Source: Candidatus Thiodiazotropha sp. (ex Myrtea sp. 'scaly one' KF741663)
GTDB lineage: Bacteria > Pseudomonadota > Gammaproteobacteria > Chromatiales > Chromatiaceae
NCBI GenBank assembly: GCA_025655555.1
Contig: JAHXIQ010000001.1
Span: 1 to 64,000, forward strand
Direction of reading: 5' to 3'
DNA: 64,000 nucleotides
Shown here: one piece after another, positions 39,969-42,510 of the stretch
Position numbering within the stretch: the stretch's first letter is position 1
How the letters are laid out: every line of letters starts with the position of its first letter
The notes under the pieces: model-generated
Told to the model about the DNA's origin: nothing
Databases searched by the model: none
Seen by the model: the letters and a program-made list of their open reading frames with translations, nothing else
Program-made: the position numbers and the translations under genes

Positions 39969-41852
39969 TTACACAATCGAATCCCTGCTCCGCTCACATT
40001 GAATATGCCGATCGAATTTCAGGTCATCCGAGAAGGCCTGGCCGATGATCCAGATCTGGTTCAGCTCCTCACTAAGGGTCGGCAATACGGTCAAGGCACT
40101 GCGGGTGCGGTGTTCGTCGAAAAAGGCGAACGGCTCATCCAGGAAGAGGAACTGATTACCTTTCACCGTCCGCTCAACCAGCTCTTGGGAGAGCGCCAGA
40201 CGTACCGCCAGCATAATCTGCCGCTGAGTACCGCTGGAAATCTCATCCAGATCCATAAAGTCGCGCTTCTCACTGGAGAAGGCACGGACACTGAGATCGT
40301 CGTCGATCTGCAGATGCTCATAGCGGTTTTCGGTGAACAGAGGCAGGGTCTTGCTGACCAGACCACGCAATTTACGGTTGAACTGGTAGGAGACCTCACG
40401 GGTCGCACCCTGGATCAACTCATCCGCCATTGAACAGATCTCGATATGGCGTTCGCGTTCAGCAGTCTTCTCGCGTATTTCAGTCTGCATGGTGTGCAGT
40501 TGTTCCGACTTATCCAGTCTTTCCCGCTCTTGGGTCAGTGCCTGATCAAGCTGTCCCATGCGGAGCTTGTCTACCTCCATGCCCTGTCGCAGGAAATTCT
40601 GCTCATTGCCGACACCGTCCCTCACCTCAGCAATAGTGGCCTGCCAGTCACTGATCCGCTGGCTTAATCTGCTTCGGGCAGCCCGATCAACCGCAATCGG
40701 TTCTTCTTTCTCTGTCTCTCTAGAAGTGCTGTCAGTTGCCTGCTCACCTTCCTGCTCCCCCACCCCATCTGAAGAAGATGTCTCTGGACTTTCAGCTATC
40801 GGCAGATCATCCAACACGCTGGCGAGAGACTGCGCAGACTGGCCATAATCTTTCACACTGTTACTCAGACTGGCGCGGCGCATCCAGAAAAAGAGGAACA
40901 GCACGGCGGCACCTGCTGCCGCATAGAGTAACCAGGTAACCATTTCCGGCTGCCAGAAAGAGAAGCTTGTTGCCAACAGCTCTGAAAGTTGCTGCGACAG
41001 GTCATGCGCCGGCATATTCGCTAAGAGATACCAACTGCCACCCATCACTAGCGCCAACAGCAGCATGATGAGACGCAAAAAACCAGCACGACCACGCGCA
41101 CCAATCGCTTTCTCCCGCTTGGGCAGTGCATCTTGATAAGCTACAGACGCACTATCCAATGTTTCGATCGACCGGTTGGCCTCACCCATGCGACGGGAGA
41201 TGGTCTCCCTTTCACCTTCCAATTCCGACAGCAAGCGGGGATCAATGTCGAGTTCATCCAGTTGCTCTTGCAGCTTGGTGATATCAGAAAGTTTTGCCTC
41301 GACCTCACTGCGTGTCTCTTCGTGGTCCTCCCGGCAGGCCTCAGCGCAATATTCCAGAGTCACCAGCCCCGCCATGGTCTTGACTGCATAGCTGTGTGGA
41401 TGGGGCGTGGTAATCTCTCGCTGAGCCAGATAGAAAGACTCGATAAACTCCTCGTACTCGTAGCCGATCAGCTCATAGACCTTATCTGCCACCTGTTCTA
41501 TACCTCTTGCCAGAGGCTCATCAGACCGTGGCGACTCCGCCAGCGCCAGACGGGCGCTATGATTACCCCCGTCATCCAAAAATCGCTCCAGGTGGTAACG
41601 CTTACCGTCAGCCGGGGTAAACTCCAGTTCGGCGGAACAGTGGGTCTCATCCCAGCGGATGATCTTCGGCAGCTCATCGAAATCGAGAGAAAAGGTCCTG
41701 CCGAAGAGGGCAAAACAGACGGTCTCCCCAATCGTGCTCTTGCCCGATTCATTGGGGCCGGTAATGGCAATCAGACCTTGTTCGGGAATGTTATCCAGCT
41801 CTAACGACGCATACTTCAGTACATTGCTGGCCTTGATGGAATTAATAATCAT
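39969..41852 (-). CDS. Membrane-anchored Rad50/YhaN-like ATPase
   Basis: SMC/Rad50-type ATPase of 627 residues. The N-terminal half has Walker A ITGPNESGKSTIGETVCF, the C-terminal half the ABC signature DEISSGTQRQIMLAVRLALS and Walker B FLFLDEPFAF. In between, instead of a long zinc-hook coiled coil, there are two TM helices (about 260-280 and 306-326) flanked by shorter coiled coils and an acidic linker, so the molecule should be tethered to the inner membrane. The start is ATG 41852, overlapping the preceding 65-aa gene by four bases (ATGA). It is like B. subtilis YhaN in having TM segments. No nuclease partner gene is adjacent. Confidence 0.85.
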   Translation of the reverse strand: MIINSIKASNVLKYASLELDNIPEQGLIAITGPNESGKSTIGETVCFALFGRTFSLDFDELPKIIRWDETHCSAELEFTPADGKRYHLERFLDDGGNHSARLALAESPRSDEPLARGIEQVADKVYELIGYEYEEFIESFYLAQREITTPHPHSYAVKTMAGLVTLEYCAEACREDHEETRSEVEAKLSDITKLQEQLDELDIDPRLLSELEGERETISRRMGEANRSIETLDSASVAYQDALPKREKAIGARGRAGFLRLIMLLLALVMGGSWYLLANMPAHDLSQQLSELLATSFSFWQPEMVTWLLYAAAGAAVLFLFFWMRRASLSNSVKDYGQSAQSLASVLDDLPIAESPETSSSDGVGEQEGEQATDSTSRETEKEEPIAVDRAARSRLSQRISDWQATIAEVRDGVGNEQNFLRQGMEVDKLRMGQLDQALTQERERLDKSEQLHTMQTEIREKTAERERHIEICSMADELIQGATREVSYQFNRKLRGLVSKTLPLFTENRYEHLQIDDDLSVRAFSSEKRDFMDLDEISSGTQRQIMLAVRLALSQELVERTVKGNQFLFLDEPFAFFDEHRTRSALTVLPTLSEELNQIWIIGQAFSDDLKFDRHIQCERSRDSIV

Positions 41853-42046
41853 GACCAACCCTCATCTGCCAACACACGCAACTTACTCAATACCATTTCG
41901 ATAGCCTGGTCGAATGCCTCCTGGTCGAAAGTCTCCCCTGAATTGAGGCGACGTTCCCGTTCGGCATTGCAGTAGTCCAGAAACTCCTGAGCCGACGCGC
42001 CCAAGGCGGCATTGGTCTGAGTGACGTTCTGTTCGGAAGATGACAT
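41849..42046 (-). CDS. Small 65-aa partner gene of the YhaN-like ATPase
   Basis: Encodes MSSSEQNVTQTNAALGASAQ and then a helical acidic part with QEFLDYCNAERERRLNSGE and FDQEAFDQAIEMVLSKLRVL. The start has GGGAG six bases upstream and the stop overlaps the ATPase start codon, so the two are translationally coupled. No TM helix or family is recognised. It would be a good candidate for a regulatory or adaptor subunit; that is inference. It is too short to appear in many annotations. Confidence 0.75.
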   Translation of the reverse strand: MSSSEQNVTQTNAALGASAQEFLDYCNAERERRLNSGETFDQEAFDQAIEMVLSKLRVLADEGWS

Positions 42047-42097
42047 GAATGGCTCCCTTGATATTGTTCTTTCGATAGATGCGTCAGGCAGTCTTTG

Positions 42098-42365
42098 CTA
42101 GTGGGCCATGCGGTAAATAAGGTAACGATCAGCCGGACCCACAAGCCTCAGCAGCAAGGCGCACGAACGTAGGACTGGCAGGCCAATTCAAGTGAGTGCA
42201 ACGCCGCTGCTGAGGCTTGTGGGCCGGCCCGAAGGGAGCCCAGCTCATGAGCCAATGCTGCGTTGTACTCCTTGGAAAGGGCTTGCCATTCCCTGCGGAG
42301 CACGCCTTGCCTTGGATCATGAGCTGGGCTCTGATCATTACCTTATTTACCGCATGGCCCACTAG
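42098..42365. mobile_element. 268-bp cloverleaf-forming inverted-repeat element
   Basis: Outer arms of 35 bp (42098-42132 and 42331-42365) are reverse complements with one mismatch and begin CTAGTGGGCCATGCGG. Inside are two perfect hairpins: CCCACAAGCCTCAGCAG (42138-42154 with 42207-42223) and AGCCCAGCTCATGA (42237-42250 with 42317-42330). Together they form a stem with two arms, a cloverleaf. If CTAG is a 4-bp target duplication, the element proper is TGGGCC...GGCCCA, as in some IS5-type relatives. There is no coding sequence, so it would be a non-autonomous element (MITE). It separates the YhaN-like operon from tetR. Confidence 0.8.
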
Positions 42366-42510
42366 GGCCTGTGGCGATCTGTTTTTTCAGTGCTCCAGTA
42401 TAAGGAGTTATCCTGAGCAGGTCATCATTCAGGGGATGAAAGCTTCACAATTCCTTTTTGTGAAAAATGCCTTTTACTTGTCAAAGACCCAGCACCACCA
42501 GAGATCGGGT

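Follow-up and report, generated by a model that had tools for sequence, protein, structure and literature searches.

A candidate IS630-type miniature element with a recurring twin-hairpin core in Candidatus Thiodiazotropha

MITEs are usually regarded as little beyond transposase binding sites around filler. An IS630-associated transposon is said, in the title of a 1991 paper by Tenzen and Ohtsubo, to transpose preferentially to TA in CTAG, and REPIN/BIME elements are, like the element described here, units of two inward-facing palindromes. Transposons of the IS630/Tc1-mariner group (ISY100, IS630) share with our element the duplication of a TA target, which the available text on ISY100 reports together with mini-transposons for which 30 bp of each end sufficed (PMC2170065). 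RUP of Streptococcus pneumoniae, a MITE related to IS630-Spn1, is also non-coding, with IS630-like terminal repeats and a TA target (PMC2229807, PMC3049150), but it is 107 bp long and AT-rich, and two conserved internal hairpins are absent from the available part of its description (PMC3049150). QMITE2 of Coxiella burnetii resembles our element in being a MITE whose transcript is predicted to fold strongly; compared by its partly available description, it differs in having direct repeats of 7-9 bp, terminal repeats of 23-29 bp and a core of 113-145 bp (PMC10969869). In the text at hand, REPs are reported as imperfect palindromes with a GT(A/G)G head (PMC2817692).

Here, we describe an element from a 64,000-nt stretch of contig JAHXIQ010000001.1 (the window, analysed as a whole) that, judged from its sequence, is very probably a non-autonomous MITE of the IS630 (Tc1/mariner) type. 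It is short, non-coding and multi-copy, bears terminal inverted repeats and a TA target duplication, and its ends are matched, at the level of a sister family, by those of an autonomous IS630 element (L294). Our explanation as a whole, to which we give a probability of roughly 0.78, is that this IS630-type MITE would be mobilised via its ends while its core would be kept as a folded single strand. IS630-type MITEs are a known kind of element; the unusual part is the twin-hairpin core that recurs under changing ends.

Locus and structure of the element

Candidatus Thiodiazotropha are sulphur-oxidising symbionts of lucinid clams. The element sits between the start of a small minus-strand ORF, for which no Pfam match was obtained, and a plus-strand TetR gene (TetR_N, E 4.2e-13), whose two closest full-length relatives also come from Candidatus Thiodiazotropha (98% and 80% protein identity). 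Close by, a window gene on the minus strand (39969-41858) matches AAA_23 and, at a score under the family cut-off, SbcC Walker B; SbcC-type proteins act on DNA hairpins, and the vicinity of such a gene to a hairpin element is probably a coincidence.

The outer arms (42098-42132 and 42331-42365, 35 nt each) are complementary at 34 of 35 positions (97%), exactly as the first-pass annotation of this DNA had stated, and CTAG is present, as it had also noted, at both the left and the right outer edge. Its two inner hairpins are likewise real, while the perfect stems, counted there as 17 and 14 pairs, comprise 18 (CCCACAAGCCTCAGCAGC) and 15 (GAGCCCAGCTCATGA) pairs; with interruptions allowed, the hairpin arms lengthen to 27 nt (85%) and 23 nt (91%). 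The three-way shape that had been proposed agrees with the folding energy of positions 42080-42385, which at -186 kcal/mol (RNA parameters) lies far below that of 100 shuffled sequences (-116.5 +/- 5.3; z = -13.1; none equally low), the predicted fold being a three-way junction in which the arms enclose both inner hairpins. The description as gene-free holds too, as none of the listed ORFs (at least 80 aa) falls wholly within the element, and two overlap it partially. More fitting limits are 42101-42362 (262 bp), with a TA dinucleotide on either side (Table 1).

The covariance model R1 matches hairpin 1 at 42133-42228 on the plus strand (E 3.4e-15) and hairpin 2 at 42236-42331 on the minus strand (E 6.5e-23), both hairpins being themselves part of the model's alignment. 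At the Rfam gathering score the element has no family (the sole match in the window is a tRNA elsewhere), and at E values up to 10 only three miRNA models appear, far below threshold.

Table 1. Features of the element, in window coordinates
Feature	Position	Strand	Basis
Left copy of the TA target duplication	42099..42100		within CTAG 42098-42101; empty-site comparison L074, L056
Left terminal inverted repeat arm, 31 nt, terminal G to TCA	42101..42131	+	30/31 complementary to right arm
Hairpin 1, 97 nt, reads inward, inner motif CAAGGC...CAACGC	42132..42228	+	row 1 of alignment A1
Spacer CCGAAGG, 7 nt, separates the hairpins	42229..42235		sequence
Hairpin 2, 96 nt, reads inward, same CAAGGC...CAACGC motif	42236..42331	-	model R1 match
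Right terminal inverted repeat arm, 31 nt	42332..42362	-	arm complementarity
Right copy of the TA target duplication	42363..42364		within CTAG 42362-42365
Whole non-autonomous element, 262 bp	42101..42362		five full-length copies in own genome

Copies, empty sites and target duplication

In the own genome, five copies are full-length, that of the window and four more at 96-99% identity to it, and many others are partial; DNA matches place the family in 22 of 56 genomes (own included). The empty-site comparison, made for the window copy, revealed two relatives (L074 and L056) in which the site is empty between flanks 93-97% identical to those of the window (93 and 97% in L056). In L074 the site reads TTTG-CTAG-GGCC, with a single CTAG, and in L056 the flanks continue through CCAG; a more diverged locus (L054), which aligns poorly at the site, is also without the insertion. 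Two loci, L004 from the own genome and L026 from another (G018), occupy the same flanks and thus represent one shared insertion. The BLASTN search for copies and the comparison of empty sites, both suggested by the first-pass annotation, thereby bear out the mobility it had suspected, and on every point (copy number, empty sites and the compensatory changes described below) the findings are the reverse of the single unique copy that would have spoken against it. A regulatory RNA resident at this locus, as the placement between the start of the small ORF and the TetR gene might suggest, can practically be discounted given the empty site in relatives with 93-97% identical flanks and the copies at other places. 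Distant BLAST searches of plasmids and phages returned no match to the element, and one strict pattern run on viral contigs gave 0 matches, which is a weak negative.

CTAG had been put forward as a possible target duplication. It stands as a target; the duplicated part is best read from the sequences as TA, often inside CTAG, which is the IS630/Tc1-mariner pattern, since in 20 analysed copies (of 22 found) of a family from a complete genome (G156) the base inside the TA is constant and the base outside it variable. There, the ends read TA-C-TAAGAC ... GTCTTA-G-TA in 17 of the 20 copies with a variable outside base (mostly A/T); TA is absent on one side in the other 3, and the inner base is constant on both sides in all 20. 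Over 124 distinct elements in 54 clusters, drawn from loci already fetched, many of them as matches, so that the counts are biased, TA was found on both sides in 97 (30-32 nt from the hairpins), on one side in 23 and on neither in 4; those 97 include 45 with CTAG, 13 with TTAG and 12 with CTAA. This set remained after 19 of 143 raw inverted-repeat finds, which did not fold as two hairpins, were dropped. A 4-bp duplication, suggested by L141 (TTAG/TTAG) and L132 (CTAT/CTAT), was abandoned on the inner and outer base pattern of the G156 copies. At five loci (L127, L128, L131, L133, L135) elements of different families abut at a common CTAG, as if inserting into each other's ends.

Decayed copies were also encountered. 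In a 0.8 Mb sample of one genome (G006), 50 of 115 terminal arms had neither a partner arm within 360 nt nor a terminus found within 130 nt. In L085, L088, L091, L092 and L093, from several genomes, window-family copies have collapsed to ~47 bp, the left arm and a few bases being joined to the last bases (CCCACTAG), and a few bases are shared where the two parts meet, as though the hairpins favoured deletion; L077, L079 and L089 are collapsed copies with other junctions. Remnants of 22 bp, reading CTAG-TGTRGTGTCCTATA-CTAG, occur in L145, L158 and L162, and L195:83-274 and L196:15372-15537 each hold just one hairpin, apparently a chimera such as recombination between the two hairpins would leave.

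Terminal repeats and candidate transposase partners

A link to a transposase comes from a 1186-bp element (L294) in another genome of the genus (G006), whose ends (CTAGTGTGGCGTAACGAATAAA and CTAGTGTGGTGTAACGAATAAA) match CTAGTGTGGTGTAACGTATAAA, the start of the common twin-hairpin family residing in the same genome, at 20/22 and 21/22 positions. With an uninterrupted frame that hits DDE_3 at E 3.4e-21, L294 is, as predicted from frame and termini, an IS630-family element with ends matching this sister family. No twin hairpin was seen when its ends were read and folded, whereas the window element has the twin-hairpin core and lacks a transposase gene. A comparable resemblance links L293 (G230; ends TA-GTACATCGACCAGTTTATATTG) and the twin-hairpin element L261 (G340; TA-GTACATCAACCATCTTATATTG).

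For the window family itself, the evidence of an autonomous partner is partial and comes from a third genome of the genus (G016). Six of its seven listed contig ends carry CTAGTGGGCCATGCGGTTAATT (the window terminus being CTAGTGGGCCATGCGGTAAATA), and on the other strand three of them encode the peptide KSAEKIIASVNRAKNASSN and three KPAANIIAAVGRAKNALHN; these are 10/19 and 8/19 identical to the C-terminus of L294, the stop codon falling within the repeat in each case. These 19-residue peptides may be the C-termini of the family's transposase. In the own genome (G000), DDE_3 (PF13358) gave no match, and among the places listed there no inward-facing pair of window-family ends was found at 0.5-2.5 kb; with no transposase of this kind found there, the resident copies are, for the present, probably stranded. 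An autonomous partner in the same genome is not a defining requirement of MITEs, since partners can be lost. Out of 30 genomes chosen for hairpin matches, DDE_3 was present in 8, over the cut-off in 7.

In G156 all 22 terminal-repeat pairs lie 240-241 bp apart (start to start), and this complete genome yielded no longer element with the same ends (up to 3 mismatches over 24 nt), while the five identical DDE_3 copies it carries are bounded by different ends. The 22 copies, whose ends are identical or differ by one mismatch, are apparently recent. One could regard such elements as REPIN-like units moved by a RAYT (tyrosine Y1) transposase, to which the paired inverted hairpins, the high copy number and the lack of a same-ended partner in G156 would be congenial. 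We deem this very unlikely: the long terminal repeats and the TA duplication of the window element argue against it, and inspection by eye found in the element no GT(A/G)G head beside an imperfect palindrome, the hallmark given in the available text on REPs (PMC2817692).

A search of 22 genomes of the genus addressed IS481 elements. Their target holds CTAG, and they were rejected as partners, for the sole match over the cut-off (L165, G020:C71) has other ends and a 6-bp flank, GCTAGA, on both sides.

Returning to an IS630-type MITE, an IS630-family transposase would have bound the outer ~20 bp of each arm, excised the element and pasted it into TA, often within CTAG. Judged from ISY100, the core would be dispensable for this reaction: since ISY100 needs only short ends, a core is unlikely to be required by the transposase as such, and its conservation would then suggest a host-side or RNA role.

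Conservation and possible role of the twin-hairpin core

Two inward-facing hairpins of ~97 nt, mostly 7 nt apart and carrying the CAAGGC...CAACGC motif, recur across families, while the terminal repeats differ widely between clusters. Counting the own genome each time, model R1 found such hairpins in 33 of 56 relatives (E <= 0.001), in 98 of the 369 genomes of a class-wide sample (E <= 1e-8) and in 60 of the 398 of a phylum-wide one, 28 of these 60 lying outside the class as model matches alone; in the class and phylum searches the best 10-11 candidates per genome were scored, so that copy numbers are lower bounds. Among 29 loci from the class search, 20 have arms enclosing 263-293 bp and 3 enclose another length; the other 6 include L251 and L253, where elements were found in a later inverted-repeat scan. 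No description of this element group was found in the literature searched, which covers subscription journals little.

The architecture is largely fixed. Of the 54 cluster representatives, 40 have a spacer of exactly 7 nt, 8 have one of 25-27 nt, and 39 have TCA or TGA at the inner arm end; the arm is 31 nt long in 22 of the 36 with an AGT/AGG anchor. Of their 108 hairpins, 95 measure 95-100 nt and 9 measure 110-126 nt; 94 carry [AT]AGGC close to the 5' side, and 106 have AAC close to the 3' side. By motif counts, 105 face inward and 3 outward (16 are ambiguous, including at least 2 of the outward three). Related families with the 25-27 nt spacer (L199:19703-19989, L211:2534-2818, L222:8693-8978, L109, L118), several with TATTAACCCGGC ends, carry CAAGGC...TAACGC or CAACGC in their hairpins. 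There are also 162-bp single-hairpin elements (L232:9988-10149 and L220:16647-16808, with AGGGCTGCGGC and AGGGCCGCGG ends), the former showing a similar motif, TAGGCG...CAACAACG.

Alignment A1 comprises 27 hairpins from many loci, after leaving out the insert-bearing first hairpin of L017 (its insert folds as a small hairpin) and second hairpin of L028, hairpins at least 93% identical to a kept one, and elements not folding as two hairpins (L008); AGGC and AAC are among its invariant positions. The compensatory changes that the first-pass annotation had asked for are present: RNAalifold predicts 33 pairs, 28 of which show at least one double change. Paired cells amount to 93.0% against 63.1% in shuffled alignments, and the covariation score to 0.781 against 0.224 (neither value reached in 500 shuffles); pairs with a double change number 28 against 23.9 (1/500) and further pair types 75 against 67.3 (7/500). 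Slid structures leave 35-42% paired, in a comparison that favours the unslid structure, derived as it is from the same alignment.

A serious rival is that the core is a functionless passenger, whose stems stay complementary through common descent, exchange of ends between elements and replicative copying from arm to arm. Template switching readily occurs at long inverted repeats, and compensatory changes can arise when one arm is copied from the other; decay is common as well, as the 50 partnerless arms of 115 in G006 and the several window-family remnants with shared junction bases attest. Such copying leaves conserved internal loops unexplained, and bases outside the stems are conserved ([AT]AGGC in 94/108 hairpins, AAC in 106/108), as is the 7-nt spacer in 40/54 representatives. 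We regard neutral upkeep as distinctly possible, at somewhat below an even chance.

The preferred reading, in which the core would be retained for its function as a folded single strand, builds on its recurrence between families with different ends though it would not be needed for transposition. Isolated non-standard pairs in the first 17 stem pairs, read on the inward strand, include 65 G.T against 30 A.C (sign test: 30 clusters against 12, 12 ties left out, p = 0.008, with clusters not fully independent); without the neighbour filter there are 88 G.T, 44 A.C, 48 other and 1656 standard pairs. This excess hints that the inward-reading strand folds alone, as RNA or DNA. The terminal arms (22 against 67) were discarded as a control, their alphabetically-first-strand orientation biasing the count; the hairpin count, oriented by position, is free of that bias. 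A transcription terminator was set aside, as no T-run was seen by eye after the hairpins, and an integron attC was dropped after comparison by eye.

Were the whole element moved or regulated as folded lagging-strand DNA, its arms paired into one double-stranded end, the joint folding of arms and hairpins (under RNA parameters) would be expected, and the G.T excess fits any folded single strand. We consider such a cloverleaf unlikely: the TA duplication and the IS630-type ends point to double-strand cut and paste. The single-stranded recognition by a transposase that the first-pass annotation had entertained is unsupported, for the enzyme matched here belongs to the DDE proteins of the IS630 family, and 30 bp of each ISY100 end suffice in the available account (PMC2170065).

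Overall, we give about even odds to a core under selection as a folded single strand, more likely RNA than single-stranded DNA. The RNA version, in which a transcript entering from either side would meet the same kind of hairpin first, is mildly favoured by the G.T over A.C excess, though this fits single-stranded DNA equally. More tentatively still, and with some doubt, the core may be a conserved module of structured RNA or single-stranded DNA that has travelled through Pseudomonadota on interchangeable IS630 ends, with the fold selected and not the ends.

Here, then, a MITE core reappears between different terminal repeats, its lengths largely fixed and its stems showing compensatory changes. 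If functional, it would represent a widespread, uncharacterised structured nucleic acid; if functionless, it would offer a large natural data set on the upkeep of inverted-repeat complementarity. Either way, the work provides a covariance model for repeats that have no Rfam match here.
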